Assembly (NCBI GenBank): GCA_017415515.1
Contig: JAFQGI010000028.1
Coordinates: forward strand, 1 to 44,665
DNA length: 44,665 nt
From: Clostridia bacterium
GTDB lineage: Bacteria; Bacillota; Clostridia; Oscillospirales; Acutalibacteraceae
Reading direction: 5' to 3'
How positions within the stretch are numbered: position 1 is the stretch's first letter; each line of letters begins with the position of its first letter. A program made the position numbers and the translations under genes. Positions 15,909 through 44,665 of the stretch are shown here, one piece after another. Below the pieces are notes generated by a model. The model searched no databases and was not told where the DNA came from. It worked only from the letters and a program-made list of their open reading frames with translations.

Positions 15909-17074
15909 TACTCAGCGCCTCCTTCCAAAATAGCAACTACTTCAAAGCAGCGCTCGATGGCTTTTAGATAGCCGTTGTTGGTGATGGTGGCACCACCGAT
16001 GGTGTCCACGTCTTTGTAGTTCTCGATGGTTTTGCCGTCAAACTGACCGTAATAGGACTCCTCGCCGCAGACGGCGCCGTAGCCCTTGCTCTCGGAGTGA
16101 GAAACGGTGAGGGTGTCGATGATCTTACCTTCGGGAGTGAGAGACACACGGATAACAATCGGAATGTTTTGGCCGGTGACATAGTGGGTTTCGTCACCGA
16201 AGTAGCCGAAGCCTAAACCGTTGACCTCAACGATATAGTTGCCACTGGCGGTCTTGGTTACTCTCTGTACGTTCTTGTCGATACCCTCATAGGCGGTCAG
16301 GTCCACGGCGGTGGGGTTGGATTCTGTCATAGCTTTGATGGCGTCCGCAATCGCGGGATAGGCAGTGGGAGCCCCTGCCTCTATACCAATAAACTCCTCG
16401 CCGATGACAGCCACGTAGCCGGCGTCGTTATGGGCGGAGTAGACGGCGTCCACGCCCTCTATCTTTTCGGTGAAGAACAGCTTGGTGAACTTGCCCTCGC
16501 CGGCAGGCAGAGCGGCAGCCAGATTGTCCTGCAGAATCTGATCGGGGGTACGGACGTCCACGTCGGCGCCGCCAAGAGTCAGCACGGCATTCAGAGCGTC
16601 CTTGACAGCGTTTTTGTAACCGTTAGTGGTTAAGGTGGCGCCCATAATGGTGTCCACTGACGCTACACCGTTGATGTCCTCGCCGATGAAACTTTCGCCG
16701 TATTCTTGTTCTTCACCTAATGCTTCGTTGGAGGAGAGACACTCGGCACCGGTGACCACACCATCGGCGGAAACGCCGCATAGAATAACCATGCCTTCAC
16801 CGTAGCCATTGACGGTCAGTTCCACAACGTAGCCCAGACCGTGTCCTTCTTCATATACGGCGGTGACGGAGTCGGGCAGCACAAACTCGGTTAAATCTAG
16901 CTTTTCAAAGTCACGGCCACCCTCCATAACCGCCGCTAGTTGTTTGTCCAACTTGGACGATTTCTCGGATTCCTCATCTTTGCTATTCTCATCTCCACAG
17001 CCCATCATCGTCAGAGCGAGAAGAGCGCAAACGCATAGCAGTGCGCCGATGTGGCGGATGGTTTTCGCCATCAT
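15908..17074 (-). CDS. Double-FMN-domain lipoprotein, RnfG paralogue
   Basis: A 388-residue secreted lipoprotein (signal helix then MMGC, lipidated Cys26, acidic Ser/Lys linker) with two FMN-binding domains. Their attachment motifs are MGATLTT and GGATITN. Its last domain is nearly identical in protein and DNA to that of RnfG, pointing to duplication or gene conversion. The start at 17074 overlaps the rnfD stop as ATGA, with GGAGGTGG upstream. Located between rnfD and rnfG, it may carry electrons from the Rnf complex to an extracytoplasmic acceptor, or substitute for RnfG. This is inference from architecture and position. Confidence 0.87.
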   Translation of the reverse strand: MMAKTIRHIGALLCVCALLALTMMGCGDENSKDEESEKSSKLDKQLAAVMEGGRDFEKLDLTEFVLPDSVTAVYEEGHGLGYVVELTVNGYGEGMVILCGVSADGVVTGAECLSSNEALGEEQEYGESFIGEDINGVASVDTIMGATLTTNGYKNAVKDALNAVLTLGGADVDVRTPDQILQDNLAAALPAGEGKFTKLFFTEKIEGVDAVYSAHNDAGYVAVIGEEFIGIEAGAPTAYPAIADAIKAMTESNPTAVDLTAYEGIDKNVQRVTKTASGNYIVEVNGLGFGYFGDETHYVTGQNIPIVIRVSLTPEGKIIDTLTVSHSESKGYGAVCGEESYYGQFDGKTIENYKDVDTIGGATITNNGYLKAIERCFEVVAILEGGAE

Positions 17075-17997
17075 TTGCCACCTCCCACTCCAAAGACTTT
17101 GTGACGGGTCCATTTGCTGATATAGGGGGTGAGAATGTTCATAAACAGGATGGCGAAAGATACGCCCTCGGGATAGCTGCCGAAATAGCGGATGAGACAG
17201 GTCATCAGACCGCAGCCGATACCGAAGATCACCTTACCCAAAGGGGTGGGGGGAGAGGTGGTGTAGTCGGTGGCCATGAAGATGGCACCGATGACGACAC
17301 CGCCGCACAGCACCATAGACAGCGCTTTGACGGGGTCAAAGCCCTCCATAAAGAGGGAGAACACAAACACGGTGCTCATAAAAGCTACGGGGTTATGCCA
17401 GGTGATGACGCGGCGGATCAGCAGATAGATGCCGCCCACCAGCAACGCAAAGGAGCAGGTTTCGCCAATGGCGCCGCCGTAATAGCCGGTGGCCAGGGTC
17501 AGCAGACCGGGCATGGCGGGCTTGGGGGTGACGTCAGCCAAGGGGGTGGCGCCGGCTACTGCGTCCACGTTGATGGGGAAGGCCGCCTGCGTCACAGAGG
17601 TGAAGGCCACCAGCATGAAGACGCGGGCAGCGATGGCGGGGTTGACCACGTTTCGACCCAAGCCACCGAAAAGGCTTTTGACCACGATGATGGCAAACAG
17701 CGAGCCGACCACACACTGCCACAGGGGGATGTTGGCGGGCAGGTTGAGAGCCAGCAACAGGCCGGTGACGGCGGCGGAAAGGTCTTTAACGGTTTGCGGC
17801 TTTTTGGTGATGAGGCAGAACAGCGCCTCAAAGGCCACACAGGCTACCACGCAGGTAAGGATCACCCACAGGGAGCGCAGCCCGAAGATGATCACGCCGG
17901 CGATGGAGGCAGGCAACAGGGCGATCAACACGTCCAGCATAATGCCGGCGGTGGACTGACCGCAGTGAATGTGAGGAGAAATGGCAAGCTTGCTCAT
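17071..17997 (-). CDS. rnfD: Rnf complex subunit RnfD
   Basis: A 308-residue RnfD/NqrB-family membrane protein. The start at 17997 (MSKLAISPHIHCGQS) overlaps the rnfC stop as ATGA and has AAAGGAGG upstream. Conserved segments include LALNLPANIPLWQCVVGSLF and GLGRNVVNPAIAARVF. VAGATPLADV holds the Thr that accepts covalent FMN. Later come HNPVAFMSTVFVFSLFME and MATDYTTSPPTPLGK. Length is normal. Confidence 0.96.
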   Translation of the reverse strand: MSKLAISPHIHCGQSTAGIMLDVLIALLPASIAGVIIFGLRSLWVILTCVVACVAFEALFCLITKKPQTVKDLSAAVTGLLLALNLPANIPLWQCVVGSLFAIIVVKSLFGGLGRNVVNPAIAARVFMLVAFTSVTQAAFPINVDAVAGATPLADVTPKPAMPGLLTLATGYYGGAIGETCSFALLVGGIYLLIRRVITWHNPVAFMSTVFVFSLFMEGFDPVKALSMVLCGGVVIGAIFMATDYTTSPPTPLGKVIFGIGCGLMTCLIRYFGSYPEGVSFAILFMNILTPYISKWTRHKVFGVGGGK

Positions 17998-19313
17998 ACT
18001 TTTTTGTCCTCCTTTGCACGGGTTTGTTTCAGCAATTCCTTGGACAGCTTGTTTCTCTGAACCAGAGGACGGTTGGCGGGGCAGACAAAGGAACAGCAAC
18101 CGCACAACATACAGGTGTCCACCGACAGCTTTTTGAGCGCCTCCACGTCGTTGTATTTATAGGCGTGGGAGATGGCGGCAGGAGCCAAACCGAAGGGGCA
18201 GTGGTTGGTGCAGGCACCGCAACGGATGCAGGCGGTGGTTTTGGGCAGCCACGCTTCTTTTTTGGTCAGGGCCAGGATGGCGTTGGTGTTGGTCATCACC
18301 GGCTCGTCGGCAGAGGGTACGGTGACGCCCATCATGGGGCCGCCGTAGATGATCTTGTCAGGGTCGCAGGTGAGGCCGCCGCAAGCAGCAAACAGATCGG
18401 ACAGTGCGGCGCCCACGGGGGCCAGCACGTTCTGGGGCTGAGCCACGGCGCTTCCCTCGACGGTCACGCATTTCTCCACCAGTGGCATACCGGTTTTGAG
18501 ATAGGTTCCGATGGTGGCAAGGGTGGTGCAGTTGATGACGATGCAGCCCGCATCGATGGGCAGCTTGCCCTCGGGTACGACACGGCCCACGGTGTGGTAG
18601 ATCAGCACCTTTTCACCGCCCTGGGGATAGACGGAGGGCAGCATCTTGACGCTGACCTGAGCCTCGGTGACGGAGGCGGCCATGTTACGCATGGCCACGG
18701 CGGCACGCTTTTTGTTGTTTTCGATGCCGACGATCACCTTTTGAATGCCCAGCAGGGGGCAGAGCACCCGCAGAGCGTCCCCCATGTCGTCGCTGCGCTC
18801 CATCATGGTGATGGTGTCGCTGGTGACGTAGGGCTCGCATTCGGCACCGTTGATGATGAGATAGTCGATGCGCTCAGGGTCCACGTTGAATTTCACGTGG
18901 GTGGGGAAGCCGGCGCCGCCCAGACCCACGATGCCGCTTTCTTTGAGGGCGGCCAGCAGCTCTTCGCGGGTGCTCACGGTGGGGGGAGTCACAGACTCGT
19001 CCACCGTTTGCAGACCGTCGGATTCGATGACGATGGCGGCGGTGGTGTTGCCGCCGGCGCCCAGCAGATCTTTGATCTTGGTCACCTTTCCGGATACGCT
19101 GCTGTATACGGGAACGGATACAAAGCCGCTTGCTTCGGCAATTTTCTGACCCACCTTTACCTCGTCGCCCACTTTAACGATGGGGGTGGAGGGGGCGCCG
19201 ATGTGCATCGCCATCGGGATGGTGACGGTCTTGGGAATGTCCATGCGCAGAACGGGCTTGTGTCGGGTTTTCTTTCTGTGGGGAGTGTGTACGCCGTGGA
19301 GATAAGAAGCCAT
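17994..19313 (-). CDS. rnfC: Rnf complex subunit RnfC (NADH/FMN and Fe-S subunit)
   Basis: A 439-residue peripheral subunit where NAD+ is reduced at a non-covalent flavin. An N-terminal beta-barrel segment (IPMAMHIGAPSTPIVKVGDE) is followed by the flavin/NADH domain with GLGGAGFPTHVKF and INGAECEPYVTSD. Two ferredoxin motifs come near the C-terminus (CIRCGACTNHCP and CMLCGCCSFVCP). It is the first gene of the rnf operon, with a promoter and a Rex-like box about 100 bp upstream. Confidence 0.97.
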   Translation of the reverse strand: MASYLHGVHTPHRKKTRHKPVLRMDIPKTVTIPMAMHIGAPSTPIVKVGDEVKVGQKIAEASGFVSVPVYSSVSGKVTKIKDLLGAGGNTTAAIVIESDGLQTVDESVTPPTVSTREELLAALKESGIVGLGGAGFPTHVKFNVDPERIDYLIINGAECEPYVTSDTITMMERSDDMGDALRVLCPLLGIQKVIVGIENNKKRAAVAMRNMAASVTEAQVSVKMLPSVYPQGGEKVLIYHTVGRVVPEGKLPIDAGCIVINCTTLATIGTYLKTGMPLVEKCVTVEGSAVAQPQNVLAPVGAALSDLFAACGGLTCDPDKIIYGGPMMGVTVPSADEPVMTNTNAILALTKKEAWLPKTTACIRCGACTNHCPFGLAPAAISHAYKYNDVEALKKLSVDTCMLCGCCSFVCPANRPLVQRNKLSKELLKQTRAKEDKKV

Positions 19314-19385: not shown

Positions 19386-19414
19386 ATAATAAAGGCAACC
19401 CAACGGATTGTCAA
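19386..19414 (-). promoter_or_regulatory. rnf operon promoter
   Basis: Minus strand: TTGACA (19409-19414), 17-bp spacer, TATTAT (19386-19391), 73 bp before the rnfC start. Confidence 0.85.
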
Positions 19415-19417
19415 CGA

Positions 19418-19435
19418 TTGTTCAACTTTTAACAA
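19418..19435 (-). promoter_or_regulatory. Rex-like operator of the rnf operon
   Basis: Minus strand reads TTGTTAA-AAGT-TGAACAA. This is 13 of 14 fixed positions of the clostridial Rex consensus, placed 3 bp upstream of the -35 box. The same arrangement occurs at 11662-11679, which makes chance unlikely. Confidence 0.7.
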
Positions 19436-31083: not shown

Positions 31084-34000
31084 ATGAAAATCCGCAAGCT
31101 GATTGCCCTTTTGGCGACCCTGCTGCTGGTGGTCACCCCCATGACCGCTATCGTGCCGGCATCTGTGTCTGCTGAGATGGGCGGCGACTTCCCCTGGACC
31201 GACGCGTCCGAGAAGATGCTCATCGAAGAGATCCTCGAGCGCGATGGCCTCATTGATGGTATCTGGTTCCCTTGGTTTAACGGTGGCCAGACCGGCCACA
31301 ACCTAACCGGCAACGACCTGATGGCCGATTATTACAATTCCAGTTCCACCAAGAACTGGGATCGGGTTGAGATGGATTATTACGGTGCCGATAAGATCTA
31401 CCGTGAGATCTACAACCTGAAGGCCATGGGCTATAACATTATGGCCTACGGCGGCTCCATCTTCGGCGAAGGCGTCATCTTTGACGAAAACGGTGACGTG
31501 CTGGGCATCAAAGAGGAGTACCTCAACAATGCCCGTCGCCTGCTGAACATGTGCCGTGAGATCGGTATGCCTGTGATGTGGAACGTCTATTTCCACGATT
31601 CCTCTATGCCTTCTTACTATGGTATGGAGGGCTGGCACGTGATCTGCCAGATGCTGGGCAACAACGAGATTGCCGATCATTACGCCGAGCGCTTTGTCCG
31701 TCCCCTGTGTGAGATGCTGGCTGAATACCCCGACGTGGTGGCGATCGTTTCCATCGCCGATGAGCCGGAGAACCAGATCAACGATTTGGGCAAGGGCGAC
31801 CATTTTGACACTAAGGGTCGCGAGATGTACGGCGTTAACCAGGACGATATGATCTACTTTATGCAGCAGATCAACGAGGTGGTTCGTGAGGAACTGCCCA
31901 ATGTGGCCCGCACTGTTGCCTCTAACAACGGCAACAAGACCATCTACCGTGATTTCGATCTGGATCTGATGGGTCACAACCAGTACACCGACGGCGACTC
32001 TTTCAAGAGCATCGAGAGCTTGATCACCGATGGCGACGTCATCCTGTCTGAGTACAACGTGGGCTCTGTGATGACCGATGACACCGCCTACGCCAATAAG
32101 CTCATTCAGTTCCGTCAGTGGATGATCGACAACGGTTATAAGGGTGGCTTCCAGTGGTGCTGGATGCCCAATTCCAACCGTTATTCTTCCTATGCTTTGC
32201 AGTCCTCCACCACCGATCCCACGGCGTTCCGTAAGACGGTGGCTCTGCTGAAGTACTTTATGGATGAGTATCGCGCCGAGTATCGCGGCGAGACGTTGGG
32301 CTTGGTGGCTCCCGTGCTGTACGCCAACGCCGGTGACGGCCAGGTGAAATTCCTGCCGTCTAAGCTGGCCACCAAGATCACCGTTCAGCGCTCGGATGAC
32401 GGCGGCTCCACCTGGAAGACGCTGGCCTCCAACGTCAATCAGGCGGATTACGTCAACAGCGATTTGGTGGGCTGCTACACCGACAGCACCACCCGCCCCG
32501 ACAGCGGCTATTGCTACCGCATCATCGCCAGCGATGACAACGGCAACACCGTCACCTCCGAGCCCAACGACCTGGCGGGTACGGACCAGACCTTTAAGAA
32601 AACCTATACTGCCCCCACTTACACCAAAGGTAAGTATTATATCACCTCCACCATGACTGAGAGTCAGGCCAAGCTGACCTCCTTTGGCGTGGAGAAGAAC
32701 CGCCCCTTGAGCGACGCCGTCAACCTGATCCAGAACGGCAGCTTTGAGTCCACCGGCGGCCAGTGGAACAACAGCTCCTTCCTGCAATACGCGCAGGTGG
32801 TGGAGGATGCCACCACCCCCGACGGCAGCAAGAGCCTGTACTTCGACACCTCCGCCCAGAGCAGCGAGGGTTGGTACACCTTCACCGTTACCGGTCTGAA
32901 GGCGAATACCGAGTACACCTTCTCCTCCTTCATTAAGGGTGCCTACCTGTCCGACAGCAACAAGGGTCAGGCTTCCATCGGTGTCATCGACCCCGACACC
33001 GGTAAGTATATGTTCTATTGGGAGTATTTCCGCTCCTATCCTCGCGCCTCCCGCGAGACCAAGCAGATGTACCCCACCGCCTACGATGACGAGTGGCACA
33101 TCCGCTCGGTGACCTTCAACACCGGCTCCCTGACCACCGCCACCATCGCTCTGTACGGCTATTCCTCCCAGATTTGGGTGGACGGTCTGGCGCTGTTCGA
33201 GACCGCCAACGGTATGAAGTACGAGAACGGTGAGTCCTCCAAGGCCATCGTCTCTACCGAGTACAGCCCCGCCTCCGGCGCCACCAACGCCGTGTCCGAT
33301 CCTCTTGTGAACGATGCTTCCTATTGGAACACCGGCGCCGGCTACAAGCAGGGCTTTATGAGCATTGCCTCCGGCAAGCTGACCTACACCGCTTCCTCCG
33401 ACCCCGTGGGTGTGCGCTACACCAAGTGGATCGACGTGAAGCCCGGCACCGATTACTATTATTCCTACACCGTGAATGTCACCTCTGCCGGCAACGGCCG
33501 CGTGGCCCTTTTGGACAACGCCATGCTGCTGCCCAACGAGGTGGTGACCACCGCCTTCTCCTCCACCGGCACCAAGACGGTCACCGGCCGCATCAGCACC
33601 GGCAAGTACGACAAGCTGGGCCTGTGTGTGGTGGACCTGGGCGGCGTGGCCACTATCGACAACATCTATCTGTATGAGGGTGACGCCAGCGTGGTGCTGC
33701 CTACCACCCCCTCTTTCGATGGCTACATCATCAACGGCGACTTCGAGATCGGCTCTTCCAACAACTGGGAGAACCTGTGGAATAACAACACTGTGGCGAT
33801 CGTGGCCGGTCGCGACAGCGCCTTTGCTATCGAGGGCACGGCCAACAGCCAGTACGCTCAGGTGCGTCAGAAGATCACCGTGGAGCCCGACACCGATTAT
33901 ATCATCGAGGTGTGGGCCAAGAACGTGTCTAGTACTAACCTGATTGTCAAGGATATGGCCGACGCCAACCTGAAGCAGGTCTCTCTGCAGGGCAGCGGCG

Positions 34001-37000
34001 ACACCTGGACCAAGACCACGCTGGAGTTCAATTCCGGCTCCAATACTTGGATCCATTTGGGCTTTATGGGCACCGTCGCCGGTGCCACTTGGACCGTGGA
34101 CGACGTGAAGATGTATGTGAAGCCCACCGAGTCTAACGACGGCTACATCATCAACGGCGACTTTGAGATCGGCACTACCAGCGGCTGGGAGAATGTGTGG
34201 GGCTCCAACACCGTCACCGTCGTGACCGGTCACGACAGCAACTACGGTATGAAGGTCAACGCTAACCTGTATACCGTGGTGCGTGAGGCCGTCACTGTGG
34301 AGGCCAATACCACCTACGTTATTGAGGCATGGGTGAAGGATTGCTCCAACGCCGTCCTGTTGGTTAAGGACAGCGCTGACTCTGTGAACATTCTGAACTA
34401 TTCCCTGCCCACCGGTTCTACTTGGACCAAGGTGACGGCTGAGTTCAACTCCGGCTCCAACACCACTGTTTACGTCGGCTTTATGGGCGGTGCCACCGGC
34501 GCCACCTACACCGTGGATGACGTGAAGATGTATAAGAAGGAAGAGCCCGTGGGCGTGCAGAACGGCGACTTCGAGAACGGTGACGCCGACTGGACCTACG
34601 GCTCCGGCTCTTACGCCATCGTGTCCGATGCCCACGGCGGCAACGGCGCTCTGCAGCTGACCAACCCCGGCCAGTGGGGCTCTGCGGCGGAGCAGACCAT
34701 CAAGGTGGAGCCCAACACCAGCTACACCATCACCTGGTGGTATAAGGCGACCCCCGGCACCGGCGTGTTCAATCTGTATACCATGAACGCCTCCGGTTAT
34801 GCCAACCTGACTGCCGAGGGCGGTCAGAACTATATGAACAACTACACCGGCGACTGGCAGCAGGGCACCTATGTGGTGAACTCCGGCTCCGCCGCCGAGA
34901 TGATTCTGAAATGGTCTACCGAGGCCTCCAACCCCGGCACCATCCTCATTGACGACATCGTGGTGACCAAGACCGAGGATTACGAGTGTACCCACGCCTA
35001 CACCGCTGCGGTGACTCAGCAGCCCACCTGCGGCACCACCGGTGTGCGCACCTACACCTGCTCTTTGTGCGGCGACAGTTACACCGAGACCATCCCCGCC
35101 ACCGGCGCTCACAAGTATGACAACGATTGCGATACCTCCTGTAATGTTTGCGGTACCACCCGCACCGTGACTCACACTTACAGTGGCTCCTGCGACACCT
35201 CTTGTAATGTTTGCGGCGCTCTGCGTCTGCTGATCAACGCCAATCACACCTATTCTTACGATTGCGATGCCACCTGTGACGTGTGCGGCTTCACCCGTAC
35301 CGGCGTGGAACACTATTACGTGGGCACGGTGACCAAGCAGCCCACCTGCACCGAGCCCGGCGTCAAGACCTACACCTGCTACTGGGGTTGCGGCGACAGC
35401 TACACCGAGGCTATCGAGCCCACCGGCGAGCACGCCTATAAGGCTGTGGTGACCGAGCCCGACTGTGTCAACGGCGGCTACACCACCTATACCTGCTCCG
35501 CTTGCGGCGACAGCTATGTGGGCGATTATACCGCCGCTCTGGGTCACTCCTGGATTGCCGCCGACTGCGACACCGCCAAGACCTGTTCCGTCTGCGGTGC
35601 CACCGAGGGCGAGGCTCTGGGTCACAGCTACAAGGCTGTGGTGACCGAGCCCGACTGTGTCAACGGCGGCTACACCACCTACACCTGCACCGCTTGCGGC
35701 GACAGCTATGTGGGCAACTGCACCGACGCTCTGGGTCACTCCTGGATTGCCGCCGACTGCGACACTCCCAAGACCTGCTCTGTCTGCGGCGAGGTCGATG
35801 GCGACGCTCTGGGTCATACGTATGACAACGATTGCGACGCCGATTGTAACACTTGCGGCGCCACCCGTACCCCTGCTGACCACAAGTATGTGGAGAGCAT
35901 TGTTGCTAATGCCAACTGCGGTTACGACGGCATGGCTAAGCACACCTGCTCTGTCTGCGGCGATTCTTACATCACCGCTATCCCCGCCACCGGTGCGCAT
36001 AAGTACAGCAACGATTGCGACAACCGTTGTAACGTGTGTAACAAGATCCGTGAGGTGGGCGATCACCGCTATGTGGGCGTTCAGACCACGGCTCCCACCT
36101 GCACCGAGACCGGTGTGATGACCTACACCTGCTCCTCCTGCGGTGTCAGCTACACCGAGACCATCCCGGTCATCGCCCACAGCTACAATGCCGTGGTGAC
36201 CGAGCCTGACTGTGTCAACGGCGGCTACACCACCTACACCTGCACCGCTTGCGGTGACAGCTACAAGGGCGATTACACCGCCGCTCTGGGTCACACCGCC
36301 GGCGCTGAGGCCGATTGCGAGAACGATCAGGTCTGTACCGTTTGCGGCGAGGTTCTGAAGGAAGCTCTGGGTCACTCCTGGATCGCCGCCGACTGCTATG
36401 CTCCCAAGCACTGCGAGGTTTGCGGCGAGACCGAGGGTGACGTTGCCCACGGCAACATCATCCATGTGGAGGCTTTGGCTCCCACCTGCACCGCTTTGGG
36501 TAACATCGAATACTGGTATTGCGAGACCTGCGGTCAGGCTTGGCTGGACGAAGCCCACACCATGAACACCAACCTGATGGCTGTCAAGCTGCCTATGGCT
36601 GACCACACCTACGATAACGAGTACGATGCCGACTGTAACGTGTGCGGCGCTGTTCGCGAGGCGACTCAGGCCCCCATCACCTTCTCCGGCAACTCCGTGA
36701 CCGAGGAGATTAAGACCGGCGCCGGCTTGGCCTTCAAGTTTGACGTGGCGGTTAACGGTATGCAGACCAACGGTACCACCGCTATCTACGAGGGCGCCAC
36801 CGTGAACGGCTACAAGCTGATCTCTATGGGTGCTGTGGTCACCAACGGTGTGTCCACTCTGGACATTCCCGCTGTGTATTTGTGCGATCTGGAGGCGGAT
36901 TCCGCTTCCTTCGCCGTGCGCGTCATTAAGATTCCCGCTGATAAGCTGGATGTGGAGATCACCGCTACTCCCTACATTGTTGTGGAGATTGACGGCGTCC

Positions 37001-37059
37001 AGACCACCATTTATGGTGAGGCACAGACTTCTTCCTACAATGAGACTTTGAACGGCTAA
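31084..37059 (+). CDS. Giant secreted glycoside-hydrolase-like protein with CBM-like modules, Cys-rich repeats and shared C-terminal domain
   Basis: A 1991-residue protein with a Sec signal peptide (cleavage after VSA, residue 31). Residues about 33-396 form a TIM-barrel resembling clan GH-A enzymes. The candidate acid/base is Glu227 (IADEPEN) and the candidate nucleophile Glu323 (LSEYNVG). A fibronectin-III-like domain follows (about 403-500). Five jelly-roll, CBM4/9-like modules come next (about 547-716, 736-870, 879-1018, 1019-1155, 1157-1299), the third and fourth being close duplicates (YIINGDFEIG). Cys-rich CxxC/His repeats span about 1301-1860, including a 64-residue tandem duplication. 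The last domain (about 1863-1991) is homologous to the end of the 3881-6160 product. No LPxTG or SLH anchor is visible. The likely role is attack on complex glycans outside the cell. The substrate is unknown. Confidence 0.88.
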   Translation: MKIRKLIALLATLLLVVTPMTAIVPASVSAEMGGDFPWTDASEKMLIEEILERDGLIDGIWFPWFNGGQTGHNLTGNDLMADYYNSSSTKNWDRVEMDYYGADKIYREIYNLKAMGYNIMAYGGSIFGEGVIFDENGDVLGIKEEYLNNARRLLNMCREIGMPVMWNVYFHDSSMPSYYGMEGWHVICQMLGNNEIADHYAERFVRPLCEMLAEYPDVVAIVSIADEPENQINDLGKGDHFDTKGREMYGVNQDDMIYFMQQINEVVREELPNVARTVASNNGNKTIYRDFDLDLMGHNQYTDGDSFKSIESLITDGDVILSEYNVGSVMTDDTAYANKLIQFRQWMIDNGYKGGFQWCWMPNSNRYSSYALQSSTTDPTAFRKTVALLKYFMDEYRAEYRGETLGLVAPVLYANAGDGQVKFLPSKLATKITVQRSDDGGSTWKTLASNVNQADYVNSDLVGCYTDSTTRPDSGYCYRIIASDDNGNTVTSEPNDLAGTDQTFKKTYTAPTYTKGKYYITSTMTESQAKLTSFGVEKNRPLSDAVNLIQNGSFESTGGQWNNSSFLQYAQVVEDATTPDGSKSLYFDTSAQSSEGWYTFTVTGLKANTEYTFSSFIKGAYLSDSNKGQASIGVIDPDTGKYMFYWEYFRSYPRASRETKQMYPTAYDDEWHIRSVTFNTGSLTTATIALYGYSSQIWVDGLALFETANGMKYENGESSKAIVSTEYSPASGATNAVSDPLVNDASYWNTGAGYKQGFMSIASGKLTYTASSDPVGVRYTKWIDVKPGTDYYYSYTVNVTSAGNGRVALLDNAMLLPNEVVTTAFSSTGTKTVTGRISTGKYDKLGLCVVDLGGVATIDNIYLYEGDASVVLPTTPSFDGYIINGDFEIGSSNNWENLWNNNTVAIVAGRDSAFAIEGTANSQYAQVRQKITVEPDTDYIIEVWAKNVSSTNLIVKDMADANLKQVSLQGSGDTWTKTTLEFNSGSNTWIHLGFMGTVAGATWTVDDVKMYVKPTESNDGYIINGDFEIGTTSGWENVWGSNTVTVVTGHDSNYGMKVNANLYTVVREAVTVEANTTYVIEAWVKDCSNAVLLVKDSADSVNILNYSLPTGSTWTKVTAEFNSGSNTTVYVGFMGGATGATYTVDDVKMYKKEEPVGVQNGDFENGDADWTYGSGSYAIVSDAHGGNGALQLTNPGQWGSAAEQTIKVEPNTSYTITWWYKATPGTGVFNLYTMNASGYANLTAEGGQNYMNNYTGDWQQGTYVVNSGSAAEMILKWSTEASNPGTILIDDIVVTKTEDYECTHAYTAAVTQQPTCGTTGVRTYTCSLCGDSYTETIPATGAHKYDNDCDTSCNVCGTTRTVTHTYSGSCDTSCNVCGALRLLINANHTYSYDCDATCDVCGFTRTGVEHYYVGTVTKQPTCTEPGVKTYTCYWGCGDSYTEAIEPTGEHAYKAVVTEPDCVNGGYTTYTCSACGDSYVGDYTAALGHSWIAADCDTAKTCSVCGATEGEALGHSYKAVVTEPDCVNGGYTTYTCTACGDSYVGNCTDALGHSWIAADCDTPKTCSVCGEVDGDALGHTYDNDCDADCNTCGATRTPADHKYVESIVANANCGYDGMAKHTCSVCGDSYITAIPATGAHKYSNDCDNRCNVCNKIREVGDHRYVGVQTTAPTCTETGVMTYTCSSCGVSYTETIPVIAHSYNAVVTEPDCVNGGYTTYTCTACGDSYKGDYTAALGHTAGAEADCENDQVCTVCGEVLKEALGHSWIAADCYAPKHCEVCGETEGDVAHGNIIHVEALAPTCTALGNIEYWYCETCGQAWLDEAHTMNTNLMAVKLPMADHTYDNEYDADCNVCGAVREATQAPITFSGNSVTEEIKTGAGLAFKFDVAVNGMQTNGTTAIYEGATVNGYKLISMGAVVTNGVSTLDIPAVYLCDLEADSASFAVRVIKIPADKLDVEITATPYIVVEIDGVQTTIYGEAQTSSYNETLNG
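33718..34557 (+). repeat. 420-bp tandem duplication encoding two CBM-like modules
   Basis: GGCTACATCATCAACGGCGA starts at 33721 and again at 34141, a period of 420 bp (140 codons). The modules share YIINGDFEIG, ENxWxxNTV, EFNSGSNT and a common end VDDVKMY. Confidence 0.85.
35437..35820 (+). repeat. 192-bp tandem repeat within the Cys-rich region
   Basis: The units starting TATAAGGCTGTGGTGACC (35437) and TACAAGGCTGTGGTGACC (35629) are nearly identical for 192 bp (64 codons). A third related copy begins at about 36183. Confidence 0.85.
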
Positions 37060-38863: not shown

Positions 38864-38895
38864 AAACGGCTGACCGTTTCGGTCAGCCGTTTTTT
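38864..38895. terminator. Bidirectional terminator
   Basis: 12-bp stem AAACGGCTGACC / GGTCAGCCGTTT with a 5-nt loop, T-run on the plus strand and A-run before it for the minus strand. It overlaps the stop of the DedA-like gene. Confidence 0.9.
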
Positions 38896-39554
38896 CGTTT
38901 TTGCCACTGCCAATACATCCAAAAGGACACCGCCGACAGGGCGGCGGTCAGCCCCAGCGACAGCCAGAACAGGGGGGAGGAGGGGTCGGCGATGCTCATT
39001 CCCAACAAAGTTGCGGGAATGACCCCCGGAATGGTGCCGAGGAAGCTGCCCCACAGATAGGTGCCGAAGGGCATGCGGATGGCACCGAAATAGAGACTCA
39101 CCGCATCCCCCGGCAGGCAGGAGATGAGCCGCAGGAAGAAGGAAGAGAAAAAGGGGTTGCCTGCCGTTTGACTGGCAAGGGCATCCACGCGGGGGTGCTT
39201 TTCGCACAAACGGTCGGCAAATTTCGCCCCCGAAAACCGTCCGATCCAATAGGGGATGGCCAGTTCGATGAGCACCCCCGCACTGTTGATGAGCAGGGCG
39301 GGGATCGGGTCAAACAAAAACCCTCCCAGCACGTTGAGCACGATGATGGGGAAGACCATGGTCAGCGACTTGACGGCGTACAGCAGCAGCAAAAAACCCG
39401 CCGCTATCAGAGGACGCTTAGGAGCTATGTGCAACAGTCCCTCCGCCGTGGGGGTGCCCTCCCCCAGCAGATAGAAACCCATAAGCGCCAGGCACACCAA
39501 AAGCGGCAGCAGGCGCAGCACCTCACTGAGGATGTTTTTGACGGTCTGTTTCAC
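38883..39554 (-). CDS. DedA/VTT-domain (TVP38/TMEM64-like) membrane protein
   Basis: A 223-residue membrane protein. The GTG at 39554 (VKQTVKNILSEVLRLL) is chosen because AAAGGAGG precedes it. An ATG at 39611 would put the start inside the operator array and has no ribosome site. The VTT domain is seen as VFPIIVLNVLGGFLF, INSAGVLIELAIPYWIGR and FFLRLISCLPGDAVSLYFGA, followed by GSFLGTIPGVIPATLLG. Members of this superfamily move or scramble lipids, including undecaprenyl phosphate and phospholipids. Divergent from the two-component genes, with a shared operator array in between. Confidence 0.88.
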   Translation of the reverse strand: MKQTVKNILSEVLRLLPLLVCLALMGFYLLGEGTPTAEGLLHIAPKRPLIAAGFLLLLYAVKSLTMVFPIIVLNVLGGFLFDPIPALLINSAGVLIELAIPYWIGRFSGAKFADRLCEKHPRVDALASQTAGNPFFSSFFLRLISCLPGDAVSLYFGAIRMPFGTYLWGSFLGTIPGVIPATLLGMSIADPSSPLFWLSLGLTAALSAVSFWMYWQWQKRKNG

Positions 39555-39590
39555 AGCACCCCTCCTTTCTGCCTGTCGAACTATGTCGCT

Positions 39591-39682
39591 ATTATGTAGG
39601 GTGAATGTCAACTGCGTGTCAACGGAATGTCAACAAATGTTGAGAAAACGTTGAGGTTTGGTTGAGGTTGACAGCCTATGTT
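39591..39682. promoter_or_regulatory. Divergent operator array with 11-bp periodic hexamers
   Basis: On the minus strand TTGACA occurs three times (plus coordinates 39606, 39617, 39628, exactly 11 bp apart). On the plus strand TTGAGA, TTGAGG, TTGAGG start at 39640, 39651, 39662, again 11 bp apart. The two arms meet in GTCAAC-aaat-GTTGAG. In each arm the last hexamer is followed by 9 bp and then a -10-like hexamer (CATAAT at 39591-39596 minus, TATGTT at 39677-39682 plus). No standard -35 exists. This is the layout of OmpR/PhoP-family direct-repeat sites. Confidence 0.75.
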
Positions 39683-39721
39683 ATGATGAAAAAGAGAGAA
39701 AAATGCCAAGGAGATGAGCGA

Positions 39722-40396
39722 ATGCTGAAAATTTTGATTGCAGAGGATGACCGAGAATTGCGGCGTTTGTTCGCCCACGTTCTGATCAAAAACGGGTATG
39801 CGGTCAAGGAGGTGTCGGACGGACAGGAGGCGCTGGACGCATTGGACGCCGAATATTTTGACCTTCTGATTTCAGACGTTATGATGCCACGGGTGGATGG
39901 GTATGCCTTGGTGCGGCTGCTGCGGGACGCGGGCAACACCACCCCCGTGATGATGATCACCGCCAAGGACGCCTTTGACGATATGCGGCTGGGCTTTTTA
40001 TCCGGCACCGACGATTATATGGTCAAGCCGGTGAACGTCAATGAGATGGTGCTGCGGGTGGGGGCGTTGCTGCGCCGCGCCCAGATGATCCACGACCGTC
40101 GCCAGACCATCGGCTCTACCGTGATGGAGTGCGATACCTTCACCGTGACGGTGGGGAATGGGCAAGGATTCACCCTGCCGCAAAAGGAGTTTATGCTGCT
40201 GTATAAAATGGCTTCCTATCCCGGACGCATTTTCACCCGACAGCAGTTGATGGATGACGTGTGGGGGTACGATTCCGACAGCGACACCCACACGGTGGAC
40301 GTGCACATCGGCCGTCTACGTGACCGCTTTCGGGACAATCCCGATTTCAAGATCGTCACCATGCGGGGCGTGGGCTATAAGGTGGTCAAGCTATGA
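39722..40396 (+). CDS. OmpR/PhoB-family response regulator
   Basis: A 224-residue regulator. The start at 39722 (MLKILIAEDDRELRR) has AAGGAG 7 nt upstream. The receiver domain has the acidic pair Glu8-Asp9, phospho-acceptor Asp52 (SDVMMPRVDG) and the conserved Thr/Lys region (MITAKD). The C-terminal winged helix (about 125-224) ends RLRDRFRDNPDFKIVTMRGV. It overlaps the kinase gene by 4 bp (ATGA). The array at 39591-39682 and the one at 41523-41576 are its candidate binding sites. Confidence 0.95.
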   Translation: MLKILIAEDDRELRRLFAHVLIKNGYAVKEVSDGQEALDALDAEYFDLLISDVMMPRVDGYALVRLLRDAGNTTPVMMITAKDAFDDMRLGFLSGTDDYMVKPVNVNEMVLRVGALLRRAQMIHDRRQTIGSTVMECDTFTVTVGNGQGFTLPQKEFMLLYKMASYPGRIFTRQQLMDDVWGYDSDSDTHTVDVHIGRLRDRFRDNPDFKIVTMRGVGYKVVKL

Positions 40397-41457
40397 GCCG
40401 GCGGGAATGGGATCGCTTTCAGGATCTGCGGCGAAAAAAGGTAAAGCTCAGTCTGCCCACCCGCATGACCTTGTTGGTGGGCGCGGTGCTGTTGGTGAGC
40501 GTTTTGACGGCCTTTGGCATCACGGCCTTGCTCAACTGGGTGTTTCCTTTCACAACGCACATTCCAATGCTCATTCAGCTCAACGTCTTTGCTTTGCTGG
40601 TGGCGATGCTGGCCACCCGCTTTCTCTCCAAGATCTTCTTTGACCCCATCCGCGATCTGCGGGTAGGTATGCAGGAGATTGCCGACGGCCGTTTCGATAC
40701 CCGGTTGGAGACCAACTCTTCCTCGTTGGAGATCCAAGAGCTGGTGGCGGGCTTTAATATGATGGCGCAGGAGCTGGAATCCACCGAGATCTTGCAGACG
40801 GATTTCGTATCCAACGTTTCGCACGAATTCAAGACCCCCATCAACGCCATCGAGGGATACACCACCTTGTTGCAAAGCACCGAAAACATCGACGAGGTGG
40901 AGGGGGAATACATCGACAAGATCCTGGCCAACACCCATCGCCTTTCCTCTCTGGTGAGTCACATACTGCTCTTGTCCAAGATCGAAAATCAATCCATCCA
41001 GCCGGTGCGGGAGACGTATCGCCTGGACGAGCAGATCCGTGAAGCGGTGGTGGCGCTGGAATCTGCGTGGGAGCCAAAAGATATCGAGTGGGACGTGGAG
41101 CTGGACGCGGTGACCTATGTGGGTAACAAAAATACGATGCATCACGTGTGGAGTAACCTGTTGGGCAACGCCGTCAAATTCAGCCCCTCCGGCGGCTGTG
41201 TTTCTCTGCGCCTGCGACAGGAAGCCGGCGTGGTGCGTTTTACCGTGGAGGACGAAGGGCCCGGGCTTTCCCCGGAGGCCGAAAAACACCTGTTTGATAA
41301 GTTCTACCAAGCCGATACCTCCCACAAGGGGGAGGGCAACGGGCTGGGGTTGGCGCTGGTCAAGCGGATCCTCGCCGTTGAAGGCGGCACCGTCGTTGCC
41401 GCCAATCGCCCCGAGGGTGGTTGTTGCTTTACGGTCACCCTGCCTTTGAAACAATAA
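40393..41457 (+). CDS. Sensor histidine kinase with short extracytoplasmic loop
   Basis: A 354-residue kinase. Two membrane helices (about 24-50 and 57-79) are separated by only some 8-10 residues, so it has no real outside sensor domain and is probably of the intramembrane-sensing type. A HAMP domain (about 80-131) is followed by the H box with His144 (NVSHEFKTPI), N box (NLLGNAVKF), G1 (DEGPGLS), F box (LFDKFYQAD) and G2 (GNGLGLAL). It is the partner of the preceding response regulator, with which it overlaps by 4 bp. The signal may be membrane or lipid status. This is inferred. Confidence 0.94.
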   Translation: MSRREWDRFQDLRRKKVKLSLPTRMTLLVGAVLLVSVLTAFGITALLNWVFPFTTHIPMLIQLNVFALLVAMLATRFLSKIFFDPIRDLRVGMQEIADGRFDTRLETNSSSLEIQELVAGFNMMAQELESTEILQTDFVSNVSHEFKTPINAIEGYTTLLQSTENIDEVEGEYIDKILANTHRLSSLVSHILLLSKIENQSIQPVRETYRLDEQIREAVVALESAWEPKDIEWDVELDAVTYVGNKNTMHHVWSNLLGNAVKFSPSGGCVSLRLRQEAGVVRFTVEDEGPGLSPEAEKHLFDKFYQADTSHKGEGNGLGLALVKRILAVEGGTVVAANRPEGGCCFTVTLPLKQ

Positions 41458-41465
41458 GAAAAAAC

Positions 41466-41505
41466 AAAAAAAGCCTTTTCGCTTTTCCGCGAAAAGGCTT
41501 TTTTT
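41466..41505 (+). terminator. Terminator after the histidine kinase gene
   Basis: Perfect 12-bp stem AAGCCTTTTCGC / GCGAAAAGGCTT with a 6-nt loop, followed by TTTTT. Confidence 0.92.
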
Positions 41506-41522
41506 GACGTTTGTCTCCTTTT

Positions 41523-41576
41523 TTCAACAAATATTGAGGTTCAGTTGAAGTTTTGTTGCACATAGCGGGGTATCTT
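41523..41576 (+). promoter_or_regulatory. Second 11-bp periodic hexamer array, before the lipid operon
   Basis: TTGAGG (41534), TTGAAG (41545) and TTGCAC (41556) are exactly 11 bp apart. They are preceded 11 bp upstream by the inverted half TTCAAC (41523). The last hexamer is followed by 9 bp and TATCTT (41571-41576). The core CAACAAATRTTGAG is shared with 39631-39644. Confidence 0.72.
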
Positions 41577-41608
41577 TCACTCATACTATGAGAAAAAGGA
41601 GACGCTCT

Positions 41609-42163
41609 GTGAAACAGCAAAAGGATTACAAAAACAAGATCGTGACGATCCCCAATTTGCTTTCTCTTTTTCGGTTGTGTCTGATTCCCCTCATCGTGTG
41701 GCTGTACGTGGTGCGGGAAAACCCTCGCCTGACCCTGCTGGTGTTGGTGCTGTCGGGGCTGACGGATGTGGCAGACGGCATCATTGCCCGCCGTTGCGGT
41801 ATGGTGAGCGATTTCGGCAAAGCCTTTGATCCGGTGGCGGACAAACTCACCCAAATGGCGATGCTGTATTGTCTGGTGTCACGGTTTCCCCACATGCTGA
41901 TCTCTTTGGTGATGCTGGTGGTGAAAGAGGTCTTTTCCGGCGTGACGGCCCTTTTGACCATTCGCCGCACCGGTGAGGTGCAGGGGGCGGATTGGCACGG
42001 CAAGCTGACCACGGTGTTGCTGTATACGATGATGGGTGTGCATTTGTTGTGGTACAACATCCCCCACGGCCTGTCGGTGGCGATGACGGTGGTGTGTGAG
42101 GCGGCGATGGTGCTGTCACTGGTGTTGTATACCCTGCGCCATTGGCGCGCTATGAAAAAATAG
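41609..42163 (+). CDS. CDP-alcohol phosphatidyltransferase (PgsA/cardiolipin-synthase-like)
   Basis: A 184-residue membrane enzyme joining a CDP-activated lipid to an alcohol. The GTG at 41609 (VKQQKDYKNKIVTIPNLL) is preferred because AAGGAG lies 7 nt upstream. The family motif D-x2-DG-x2-AR-x8-G-x3-D-x3-D is complete (DVADGIIARR ... GKAFDPVADK), and NLLSLFRLCLIP is the usual start of PgsA-type proteins. Four to six membrane helices are expected. The product could be phosphatidylglycerophosphate or another phospholipid. It heads a three-gene lipid/membrane unit behind the hexamer array. Confidence 0.9.
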   Translation: MKQQKDYKNKIVTIPNLLSLFRLCLIPLIVWLYVVRENPRLTLLVLVLSGLTDVADGIIARRCGMVSDFGKAFDPVADKLTQMAMLYCLVSRFPHMLISLVMLVVKEVFSGVTALLTIRRTGEVQGADWHGKLTTVLLYTMMGVHLLWYNIPHGLSVAMTVVCEAAMVLSLVLYTLRHWRAMKK

Positions 42164-42174
42164 GGGGTTATCGA

Positions 42175-42885
42175 ATGGGACGAGGAGAAAAGGTGGCTCG
42201 CGTCGTCAGTCTGACGGCGGGGCTGTTGTTTGCAGTGTTTACCATAGGGATGCTGCTGGTGAGCGGGCGGTACGCAAGGCTGCCCATGGCGGTGCTGACG
42301 CCGCTGTTGCTGGCGGCGCCCCTTATTGTGGAGCGGTTGTTCCGTTGCCACGTGGCTTTGCCGGTGTATTTGTTCACCCTTTTTTATGCGGTGGGGCCGA
42401 TGTTGGGGCATTGCTATAATTTCTATTACCACATTCCGTGGTGGGATAAGATGCTGCACGTGTTCGGCGGCGTGACGTTTGCCCTGTTGGGGTTGTTTGT
42501 GTTCCAAAAGTTTGTGGATCCCGCCGGCAAAAAGCGGGTGATGGCGGCGGTGTTTGCCCTGTGCCTTTCCATGGCGGTGGCGGTGGCGTGGGAGTTCTGT
42601 GAATACGGCGCCGACACTTTTTTGGGCATGGATATGCAGGACGACACCGTGGTCACCCACATCACCTCCTATTTGCTGGACGGCGCCCCCGGAGAGGCCG
42701 GCACCATCGAGGAGATCACTGCCGTGACGGTCAACGGCAAGCCCCTGCCCGTGAAGGGGTATATCGACATCGGGCTCAACGACACCATGTGGGATATGCT
42801 GCTGGAAACCCTGGGCACGCTGGCGGTGGTGGGCTGGTTTGTGTGGGATAAAGGAAAACACGCTCCCTTTCGGAGTGTAGAATGA
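42175..42885 (+). CDS. YjdF/DUF2238-like membrane protein
   Basis: A 236-residue polytopic membrane protein. The start at 42175 is preceded by GGGGG, 7 nt away, and the gene lies 11 bp after the phosphatidyltransferase. The pattern YYHIPWWDKMLHVFGGV ... VAWEFCEYGADTFLGMDMQD ... LNDTMWDMLLETLGTLAVV resembles the YjdF/DUF2238 family, with conserved Asp, His and Glu in the membrane. The function of the family is unknown. Its place between two lipid enzymes suggests a lipid-related role. This is inferred. Confidence 0.72.
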   Translation: MGRGEKVARVVSLTAGLLFAVFTIGMLLVSGRYARLPMAVLTPLLLAAPLIVERLFRCHVALPVYLFTLFYAVGPMLGHCYNFYYHIPWWDKMLHVFGGVTFALLGLFVFQKFVDPAGKKRVMAAVFALCLSMAVAVAWEFCEYGADTFLGMDMQDDTVVTHITSYLLDGAPGEAGTIEEITAVTVNGKPLPVKGYIDIGLNDTMWDMLLETLGTLAVVGWFVWDKGKHAPFRSVE

Positions 42886-42911
42886 CAAGCAAGAAAAAAG
42901 GAGTGTTTCAA

Positions 42912-43784
42912 ATGGCGACGGGTTATGTGCTGTATAATCCACAGGCCGGCCACGACAACAGCAAGGAAGATCTTCAGTTGTTGGAGCTGGTGTTCCAAGA
43001 AGAGCTGGTTTTTATAGATGTGCATGACATGAAGGATTATCGGGTGTTTATACAGGGCTTGGCAGCGGAGGATTTTCTCGTTTTGGCCGGCGGCGACGGT
43101 ACCCTGAACCATTTTGCCAATGCCATCGACGGCATCGCGTTCGACAACGAGATCCTCTATTATCCCAGCGGAACGGGCAACGATTTTGCCTACGATCTGG
43201 GCTATGAACGGGAGTGTGCGCCCTTTTCGGCGGGACGCTATCTAAAAAACCTGCCCTCGGTGCAGGTGAGCGGAAAAACCTATCGCTTTGTCAACGGCGT
43301 GGGCTATGGCATTGACGGTTATTGCTGTCAGGAAGGGGATAAACGCAAGGCGTTGGGTAAAAAGGTGAATTATACCGCCATTGCCATAAAAGGTCTGCTG
43401 TTCCACTATAAGCCCACGGCGGCGACGGTGACGGTGGATGGGGTTTCTCACAGCTACGATAGGGTGTGGCTGGCCCCCACCATGAACGGTCGCTGCTATG
43501 GCGGCGGGATGATGCCCGCCCCCCACCAAGACCGCCTGGGGGAGGAGCGAACGCTGTCCACCCTGGTGTTTCACGGCAGCGGTAAGCTGAAAACGCTGCT
43601 GATGTTCCCCTCGCTGTTCAAGGGGGAACATCTTCGTTACATAAAACACGCCGAGGTGCTGACGGGGCACACCGTTACGGTGGCTTTTGATCGCCCTGTG
43701 GCTCTGCAGATCGATGGGGAGACCATCCCCAACGTGACGGCGTATACGGCCTGCTCCCCCGCGGTAGAGCGTGTGGCAGTGTGA
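42912..43784 (+). CDS. Diacylglycerol/lipid kinase (DAGK catalytic family, YegS/DgkB-like)
   Basis: A 290-residue soluble kinase that would phosphorylate diacylglycerol or a related lipid. The start at 42912 (MATGYVLYNPQAGHDN) has AAAAAGGAG upstream. An earlier ATG overlapping the previous stop lacks a ribosome site. The nucleotide-binding motif LAGGDGTLNHFANAI and the segment YYPSGTGNDFAYDLG are diagnostic. The C-terminal beta domain has NGVGYGIDGYC and the substrate-side GGGMMPAP. It recycles diacylglycerol to phosphatidate, feeding CDP-lipid synthesis by the first gene of the unit. Confidence 0.92.
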   Translation: MATGYVLYNPQAGHDNSKEDLQLLELVFQEELVFIDVHDMKDYRVFIQGLAAEDFLVLAGGDGTLNHFANAIDGIAFDNEILYYPSGTGNDFAYDLGYERECAPFSAGRYLKNLPSVQVSGKTYRFVNGVGYGIDGYCCQEGDKRKALGKKVNYTAIAIKGLLFHYKPTAATVTVDGVSHSYDRVWLAPTMNGRCYGGGMMPAPHQDRLGEERTLSTLVFHGSGKLKTLLMFPSLFKGEHLRYIKHAEVLTGHTVTVAFDRPVALQIDGETIPNVTAYTACSPAVERVAV

Positions 43785-43788
43785 ATGG

Positions 43789-43824
43789 AAAACGGTCTGT
43801 CCGATGGGACAGACCGTTTTTTAT
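43789..43824. terminator. Bidirectional terminator
   Basis: 14-bp stem AAAACGGTCTGTCC / GGACAGACCGTTTT with a 4-nt loop and T-run on the plus strand. It lies between the lipid kinase and the convergent XRE gene. Confidence 0.9.
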
Positions 43825-44066
43825 TAATGTATTTCCTGTTCCAGACCGCGAAACAGAGGGCTGTGAAAAAACGTTTCAATGGTGATGCCCAAACCATCGC
43901 ACAACTTTTGAATGGTGGAGACGGTGGTGCTGTGATTGCGCCCGCTGATGATGTTGTTGACGGTGGATTGCGTCACACCGCTCAATGTGCTCAATTTGTT
44001 AACGGAGATGTTTTCGGATTCGCACAGCTCCAATATGCGCAGTCGAACCGCTTCGCCAATGGTCAT
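43824..44066 (-). CDS. XRE-family HTH regulator, second XRE/SLOG pair
   Basis: An 80-residue single-domain regulator. The start at 44066 (MTIGEAVRLRILELC) has AAGGTGAT upstream. The earlier GTG lies within that ribosome site. The helix-turn-helix is ENISVNKLSTLSGVTQSTVNNIISG, followed by STIQKLCDGLGITIETFF. Divergent from a SLOG-like gene whose start is 91 bp away, the same arrangement as at 29.7-30.5 kb. Its sequence is only distantly related to the first XRE protein. Confidence 0.88.
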   Translation of the reverse strand: MTIGEAVRLRILELCESENISVNKLSTLSGVTQSTVNNIISGRNHSTTVSTIQKLCDGLGITIETFFHSPLFRGLEQEIH

Positions 44067-44156: not shown

Positions 44157-44501
44157 ATGTCGGTGTGTTTTATGACGGGTCATGCAGAGGCGTCAAAAGA
44201 GTTATTGCCGCAGATTATGGAATTGGCACAACGATTGATTGAAAAATGGAATGTCACACAGTTTGTGGTAGGACACTATGGAAATTTTGATTGCTTAGCG
44301 GCACATGCAATTAAGCAGCTAAAACAAGATTATCCGCGTATTCAACTTATTTTGCTTTTGCCGTATTATTCTGCAGACCGAAGTCTGGAAATATCCAACG
44401 GATTTGACGGCTCTGTGTACCCAGAGGGATTGGAAAACGTTCCGTATCGATACGCCATTGTGAAAGCCAATCGGTTGGCGATAGACGGAGCTGATCACGT
44501 T
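44157..44501 (+). pseudogene. SLOG-like gene interrupted by a MITE
   Basis: Starts MSVCFMTGHAEASKELLPQ after AAGGGGTG. 115 native codons are followed by the MITE at 44503. The remaining frame encodes only repeat sequence and is open to the window edge. QFVVGHYGNFDCLAAHAI, a LILLLPYYSADRS strand and YAIVKANRLAIDGADHV parallel the 30072-30539 protein, where VERNRTMIEKSRFCVVYCRE and a further C-terminal strand follow. The last nucleotide-fold elements are therefore missing. Whether the fused protein is stable is unknown. AT-rich compared with its neighbours. Confidence 0.8.
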
Positions 44502-44502
44502 A

Positions 44503-44665
44503 GGGTGAGCAATCAAACCCGAATCCGCCGCAAAGCGGGATATTTCGGCGCTTTTTGCCTCGCTCGTGCTCGCAAGGCGCCAGCATTACTTCGCCCGATC
44601 GAAACAAAAATCCCTCGAAATCTCCTCGCTTTGCGGTCGGAGATTTTGAAAAGAGCAGATTTTTG
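44503..44665. mobile_element. MITE, copy 2, truncated by window edge
   Basis: Begins GGGTGAGCAATCAAAC right after TA (44501-44502). Its 163 visible bases match copy 1 (22460 downwards to about 22298) in opposite orientation with few differences, including CGCCGCAAAGCGGGATATTT and the later CTCCTCGCTTTGCGGTCG. About 110 bp should lie beyond the window. Confidence 0.88.

Follow-up and report, generated by a model that had tools for sequence, protein, structure and literature searches.

What do the strictly spaced 11-bp repeats around a small two-component system of a Clostridia bacterium control, and does the regulator encoded beside them own them? The question arises from a stretch of 44,665 nucleotides (contig JAFQGI010000028.1 of assembly GCA_017415515.1, hereafter the window), in which a dedA gene, a response regulator with its histidine kinase, and an operon headed by a pgsA-like phosphatidyltransferase gene lie side by side, each preceded by such an array. 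Comparative analysis of these arrays points to a two-component system that very probably serves membrane glycerolipid supply and composition. Our more specific reading, to which we assign a probability of about 0.6, is that of an undescribed regulon extending across an order of Clostridia, in which a bilayer state read within the membrane would be coupled to glycerophospholipid and glycolipid synthesis through an operator grammar nucleated by a palindrome.

A preliminary description of the window had reported hexamers in 11-bp steps, three facing each way between dedA and the regulator gene and three more before pgsA, and the sequence bears this out (Table 1). The inverted half-site that it placed 11 bp upstream of the pgsA array is likewise present, and its position can now be stated exactly as TCAAC-N4-GTTGA. 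At all three starts the last half-site is followed, as described, by 9 bp and a -10-like hexamer, and a listing of sigma-70 promoters contains none with a -35 at 16–18 bp in the direction of transcription at any of these starts. The two back-to-back arrays interlock: half-site 39630-39634 of the minus-strand array doubles as the inverted half-site of the plus-strand array, and half-site 39639-39643 of the latter serves the former in the same way. A triple GTTGA pattern (up to 2 mismatches) occurs at 5 places in the bacterium's own genome (1.5 Mb, 68% complete), 4 of them in the window, vs. 2 for the reversed pattern, and the two perfect copies are the back-to-back pair. By these counts, the arrays at the three starts are not due to chance.

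Relatives of the regulator were drawn from 60 relatives (14 with a match at E 1e-50), from the best 80 of 573 in one public-genome scan, and from 394 genomes of the order (43 with a match at E 1e-80, including that of the window). They yielded 51 regulator loci, of which one is the window itself, 10 stem from the relatives and the public-genome scan, and 40 from the order genomes. A position weight matrix (PWM) built from 33 exact promoter sites in these loci (29 non-redundant) has the consensus AA-NN-TCAAC-N4-GTTGA-N6-GTTGA-N6-GTTG-N12-TATAAT, and the same operator (TCAAC-N4-GTTGA-N6-GTTGA-N6-GTTG-N12-TANNNT, at a PWM score of at least 20) is found at 35 of the 50 related regulator loci (36/51 with the window). 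The inverted TCAAC, though outside the search pattern, keeps an invariant position in 23 of the 29 non-redundant training sites. Leave-one-out scores of the training sites range from 28.8 to 54.7, and a PWM scan of reversed sequence gave 1 match above 15 in 1.35 million position-strands.

Each part of the operator also predicts the others. Among non-redundant sites of the 51 loci, window included, 27 were found by TCAAC-N5-TTGA-N7-TTGA alone; TTG follows at +22 in 24 of them, and TANNNT at +37 (9 bp past TTGNNN) in 26, other offsets reaching at most 4, so that the 9-bp spacing of the window is kept across relatives. Conversely, a search with only the three repeats and the -10 hexamer returned 30 sites, of which 24 have TCAAC at the -10 offset. 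With pattern-selected loci added, the same test gave 34/37 and 36/37, and 34/50 for TCAAC. Direct repeats with a period of about 11 bp around the -35 position are what is expected of an OmpR/PhoB-family operator, and the fixed inverted half-site (24/30) sets it apart from a PHO-box type made of direct repeats only. It is extremely improbable that the arrays are chance repeats in AT-rich promoters: an array before the window's rnfC gene, matching 14 of 15 positions and not conserved, is an example of what such repeats may look like, but the genome counts, the reversed-pattern controls and the independent prediction of each part all speak against this explanation.

The distribution of the operator across genomes follows that of the regulator. 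The exact three-repeat promoter pattern (P3) occurs in 42 of the 394 order genomes (57 places, vs. 6 for the reversed pattern), namely in 27 of the 43 regulator genomes and 15 of the 351 others (Fisher p 3e-20); by regulator identity, it is present in 21/27 genomes at 64% or more and in 6/16 at 55–63%. The pattern with the inverted half-site (P4) occurs in 60 genomes (23/43 vs. 37/351, p 3e-10; reversed pattern, 12 places); both p-values are inflated by kinship, the order genomes coming partly from one genus. The co-occurrence scan proposed in the preliminary description thus yielded arrays that track the regulator and often adjoin its gene. When 71 regulators were placed on a quick tree (the 51 loci, 19 more distant ones from the public-genome scan, and L242, added because array-bearing), the arrays clustered, with 13 changes vs. 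24.1 after shuffling. Loss of the array in close relatives, which would have spoken against the proposal, is not the rule: 30 of the 34 regulators with at least 64% identity have a site scoring at least 20, and two others (L033, L034) have a two-repeat form with unchanged spacing. Of those 30 sites, 27 fall in the scanned stretch (the third repeat being degenerate, with scores of 22–31, in L032, L194, L198 and L207), two just outside it (L196, L202), and one probably on the contig that continues a broken kinase gene (L035/L249).

Could a different DNA-binding protein own the arrays, the two-component genes being merely its targets? Genome G133, with exact sites and no close regulator, would agree with such an owner, but sites follow the regulator group (the 30 of 34 above vs. 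7 of the 37 more distant tree rows, L242 included), and binding to 11-nt direct repeats is the mode of this regulator's own DNA-binding family in the available text of PMC4415409, which makes a foreign owner quite improbable. Several of the 15 P3 genomes outside the regulator set lie close to its threshold or below it with a recognizable relative: G193 barely misses the cut-off (1.1e-80, 60% identity), G393 has a regulator of 53% identity with divergent arrays of its own, and G259 has one of 52%. The PWM applied to five of these 15 genomes scored sites of G133, G193 and G393 at 40–54 and of G194 at 28, with nothing above 15 in G140, and P4 sites of five non-regulator genomes scored -8.1, -6.6, -1.6, 8.2 and 29.6.

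The genes behind the operators were surveyed at 66 sites (PWM score of at least 20) in 69 loci, the 51 regulator loci and 18 fetched because they bear P3. We looked for 17 target families, with representatives named by Pfam, other members assigned by phmmer, and ABC and DnaK-like genes recognized by eye. Eleven of the 66 sites lead first to the regulator. Of the 55 non-autoregulatory ones, a lipid gene follows in 30 and a recognized lipid or envelope gene in 44; the simple gene caller returned no gene for 5 of the 55, including L023, whose plsY was missed. Not counting regulator and kinase, array operons comprise 101 genes, of which 45 belong to lipid families, vs. 7 of 410 other genes of the site-bearing loci. 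The main lipid targets are pgsA, plsY, a monogalactosyldiacylglycerol (MGDG)-synthase-like gene, DegV, a lipid kinase and PAP2, the DegV and CrtO-like proteins being counted for their lipid role; pgsA, plsY and DegV turn up repeatedly across several families within the order. Of the 36 site-bearing regulator loci, 23 have a lipid gene nearby (4 kb before to 5 kb after), vs. 1 of the 15 without a PWM-20 site, and this sole exception is L034 with its two-repeat array.

Pfam-named lipid representatives comprise CDP-OH_P_transf, G3P_acyltransf (PlsY), Acyltransferase (PlsC-like), MGDG_synth, CrtO, DegV and PLD-like proteins, with PAP2 over the PF01569 cut-off in L242 and under it in L236; further named representatives are ABC_trans_CmpB, Glyco_transf_8, FtsH_ext, Zn_peptidase_2 and a P-type ATPase. 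In G233, whose regulator is 86% identical, divergent arrays face a dedA-GT8-pgsA operon and the regulator, and a third array precedes a lipid kinase gene. In G133 and G218 the array precedes pgsA together with a gene homologous to the DUF2238-like one of the window, followed by a CrtO-like gene (G133 also has an MGDG-synthase-like gene), G063 has the order kinase-array-pgsA-CmpB, and in G293 a site scoring 49.5 lies away from the regulator, before a gene read by eye as DegV. Thus, the proposal that the regulator governs itself, dedA and the pgsA unit gains support from the co-occurrence and the lipid targets, and a fixed set of partner genes does not hold, since the lipid genes vary. We also observed that the array-pgsA-DUF2238-like-CrtO operons of L232 (G133) and L233 (G218) are very similar in two genera, and that ABC_trans_CmpB-type membrane proteins recur in array operons (L234, L248 and L249 by Pfam; L202, L204 and L209 by phmmer). 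FtsH-like genes stand under an array promoter of their own in L208, L232 and L240, which suggests proteolysis within the regulon.

How would such a circuit work? The kinases of the window and of 50 relatives begin with a hydrophobic hairpin with no loop of note (hydropathy only), and no extracytoplasmic sensor domain was recognized in the window kinase by Pfam or hydropathy. As far as hydropathy shows, this matches an intramembrane-sensing kinase, which has two membrane helices joined by a minimal loop and lacks any further sensor domain; HAMP, HisKA and HATPase_c of the window kinase score above their Pfam cut-offs. The hairpin may read some bilayer property. The kinase would then phosphorylate the regulator, whose receiver and Trans_reg_C winged helix both score above the Pfam cut-offs, as befits the OmpR/PhoB family, and the regulator would bind the one inverted and three direct half-sites, as their co-occurrence indicates. 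If the -10 hexamer is set at -12 to -7, the third hexamer occupies -27 to -22 and the second -38 to -33. Because these two direct half-sites flank the -35 position, as in PHO boxes, the regulator most likely stands in for the -35 element and would recruit RNA polymerase as PhoB does. The half-sites also span roughly -59 to -22, where a bound protein could block the polymerase and shut the lipid genes off, yet the lack of a listed -35 and the rigid 9-bp spacing (26/27) are as anticipated for an activator substituting the -35 contact, and a repressor site is unlikely.

In diverging promoters (the window, L192, L193, L210, L240 and L242) the two arrays share a central palindrome of inverted half-sites, and most one-way promoters retain one inverted half-site, with a second one at -21 in 5 of 50 sites. 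This arrangement suggests four protomers on the operator, which would form a back-to-back pair extended head to tail. Since divergent arrays each use the first direct half-site of their counterpart as inverted half-site, we propose a central palindrome from which direct repeats grow outward in one or both directions, and which could give rise to both promoter forms. This circuit would act on its own genes and, for the most part, on genes for lipids, many of which adjoin it. Direct binding, activation and a membrane-stress signal are inferences here.

A number of observations weigh against the proposed lipid regulon. Nine same-genus genomes (66–94% complete) contain no regulator at E 1e-50; two of the 34 close regulators have no site at all (L037, from Ruminococcus bromii, and L216); and G133 (97% complete), with two exact sites and a best regulator match of 36% identity, is a true exception. 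The hairpin kinase also occurs in relatives without arrays. Exact sites number one to three per genome, many of them beside the regulator, so a "global" control of lipids goes beyond the evidence. The lipid families were picked after the targets had been seen, and 18 of the 69 loci were pattern-selected. Finally, 25 of the 55 non-autoregulatory sites have no recognized lipid gene in their operon, and several targets (FtsH, P-type ATPase, ABC transporter, DnaK-like protein, zinc peptidase) are not lipid enzymes. Alternatively, the arrays might serve a general response to envelope stress or antimicrobial peptides, with the lipid genes as one arm and a drug or peptide as the signal. Such a response would accommodate FtsH (L208, L232, L240), MacB-like ABC proteins assigned by eye (L038, L224), the P-type ATPase (L193, L239) and the zinc peptidase (L247), of which L232, L239 and L247 have Pfam support, and intramembrane kinases are known from antimicrobial-peptide systems. 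Nevertheless, lipid genes form the largest target class (30/55), with pgsA, plsY and DegV recurring across families, and we consider a general stress response possible but less likely than the glycerolipid regulon.

The layout of the window locus is summarized in Table 1. The regulator and kinase genes, on the one hand, and the pgsA, DUF2238-like and lipid kinase genes, on the other, look like separate units because a strong terminator follows each. For dedA we chose, from the sequence, a GTG start at 39554 that is preceded by a Shine-Dalgarno motif. The PgsA/Cls-like protein scores under both NCBIfam cut-offs (pgsA and ClsA). The hydrophobic protein encoded next to it has no Pfam match of its own; its homologues in the same operon position of L232 and L233 (57 and 60% identity to the window protein) match DUF2238 below the cut-off.

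Table 1. Genes, terminators, operator half-sites and promoter elements of the window
Feature	Position	Strand	Basis or remark
Array before rnfC, 14/15 positions	19400-19426	-	sequence
DedA-family (VTT domain) membrane protein, array target	38883..39554	-	Pfam VTT_dom E 5.7e-20, scored on longer ORF 38883-39611
-10-like CATAAT, dedA promoter, 9 bp past last half-site	39591..39596	-	one-mismatch match of promoter pattern
Three GTTGA half-sites, 11-bp steps, facing dedA (TCAAC at 39608, 39619, 39630)	39608..39634	-	sequence; PWM 41.6
Three GTTGA half-sites, 11-bp steps, facing regulator gene (39639, 39650, 39661)	39639..39665	+	sequence; PWM 49.5
-10-like TATGTT, regulator promoter, 9 bp past last half-site	39677..39682	+	exact pattern match 39640-39682
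Response regulator, receiver and winged helix (OmpR/PhoB type)	39722..40396	+	Pfam Response_reg, Trans_reg_C
Histidine kinase: hydrophobic hairpin, HAMP, HisKA, HATPase_c	40393..41457	+	Pfam; hairpin by hydropathy only
Intrinsic terminator between two-component operon and lipid operon	41465..41506	+	18-pair stem; -26.4 kcal/mol, z -5.6
Inverted half-site TCAAC of pgsA promoter	41524..41528	-	sequence
ATTGA/GTTGA/GTTGC half-sites (41533, 41544, 41555), 11-bp steps, upstream of pgsA	41533..41559	+	PWM 55.1
-10-like TATCTT, pgsA promoter, 9 bp past last half-site	41571..41576	+	exact pattern match 41534-41576
CDP-alcohol phosphatidyltransferase (PgsA/Cls-like)	41609..42163	+	Pfam CDP-OH_P_transf E 1.6e-32
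Hydrophobic protein with at most a remote likeness to DUF2238 (YjdF)	42175..42885	+	homologues only
YegS/DAGK-type lipid kinase	42912..43784	+	Pfam DAGK_cat, YegS_C
Intrinsic terminator past lipid operon	43784..43825	+	folded as 43785-43826, z -8.1

Two further arrays were rejected as members of the regulon. The one before rnfC scores 6.5 with the PWM and has no inverted half-site, and none of 29 other RnfC loci has an array within 450 bp upstream (27 of 31 genomes matched, G000 included, some of the homologues being distant at 30–33% identity). As this array is not conserved, single arrays can mislead. The other, on contig C24 of G000 (2 mismatches), lies among genes that look phage-like by eye, has no PWM match and is ascribed to chance. 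The Rnf-type operon itself (14050-19313, minus strand) includes two FMN_bind proteins.

Because the nine same-genus genomes yielded no regulator, we considered misbinning of the contig; the window homoserine dehydrogenase is 93% identical to that of a same-genus genome over residues 84-508. DNA matches to the genus extend up to about 38.8 kb (an NhaC-like gene) and resume from about 43.2 kb, the matching pieces lying on different contigs, and among the matches listed none to the nine genomes covers about 38.8-43.2 kb. This pattern fits a gained or widely lost module, and there may be a local assembly join around this segment. Elsewhere in the window, a 1991-aa protein (31084-37059) with cysteine-pair repeats near its C-terminus has DNA relatives at several places in its own and same-genus genomes (G000:C29, G008:C17, G006:C21). 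A gene at 44157-44663 with weak YpsA/SLOG similarity (below the Pfam cut-off) extends into a terminal repeat, where about 165 bp (44500-44665) have matches at several sites of the bacterium's own genome, reaching 100% identity, and also in same-genus genomes; this is a dispersed repeat, at which the contig probably ends.

With respect to known systems, a literature search (titles and abstract openings, subscription papers lying outside it) returned no description of this operator or regulon, which appear to be undescribed in the literature searched, although the system is of a known kind (OmpR family). One close parallel is the PHO box, which sits in place of the -35 element. PhoB/PhoP and the window regulator have the same domain architecture, and both operators have 11-nt repeats around -35; here, the half-site is GTTGA, three direct and one inverted half-sites stand at fixed spacing with 9 bp to the -10, and the targets are mainly lipid genes. 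The available text of PMC4415409 describes 11-nt direct repeat units, tandem head-to-tail binding and a sigma contact. Neither window protein reaches the PhoBR equivalog cut-offs (regulator, 155.8 of 296.2 bits for TIGR02154; kinase, 161 of 334.2 bits for TIGR02966).

Small regulons devoted to glycolipid or membrane biogenesis are also under two-component control in the Bacillota Clostridioides difficile (HexRK-hexSDF) and Bacillus subtilis (YrkPQ), hexS being a predicted MGDG synthase (PMC10128005, available portion). According to the same portion, the extracytoplasmic part of HexK comprises about 120 residues, in contrast to the loop-less hairpin described here, and the main text available contains neither "DegV" nor "PlsY", whereas pgsA, plsY and DegV are frequent here; the term "direct repeat" is also absent from that portion of PMC10128005. 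MGDG-synthase-like genes lie near some relatives. DesK-DesR of B. subtilis acts on a desaturase through a NarL-type regulator, unlike the present OmpR-type regulator and its glycerolipid assembly genes. A kinase that senses the membrane state via membrane helices and remodels lipids would nevertheless be a common element (PMC6879721, accessible part). The LiaFSR/SapRS hub of Enterococcus faecalis similarly places glycolipid and anionic lipid composition under two-component control, but acts via lipoteichoic-acid synthesis with the accessory LiaF (PMC13123819, accessible part). Pfam searches of the window genes found no LiaF-like gene beside the window's system, within that neighbourhood.

To our knowledge, the control of phospholipid/glycolipid balance in anaerobic gut Bacillota is largely open. 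The circuit considered here appears to operate in a number of Clostridia, often gut inhabitants of animals, and its operator recurs beside the same switch in many relatives. By association, the precise promoter signature connects uncharacterized genes (DUF2238-like, CrtO-like, CmpB) with lipid biology, and the fixed inverted half-site is structurally puzzling in a family whose binding is described as head to tail (PMC4415409, available text). Overall, a regulon with a seemingly hairpin-only kinase and with targets that vary between species, mostly in glycerolipid assembly, would constitute a testable membrane-homeostasis circuit.

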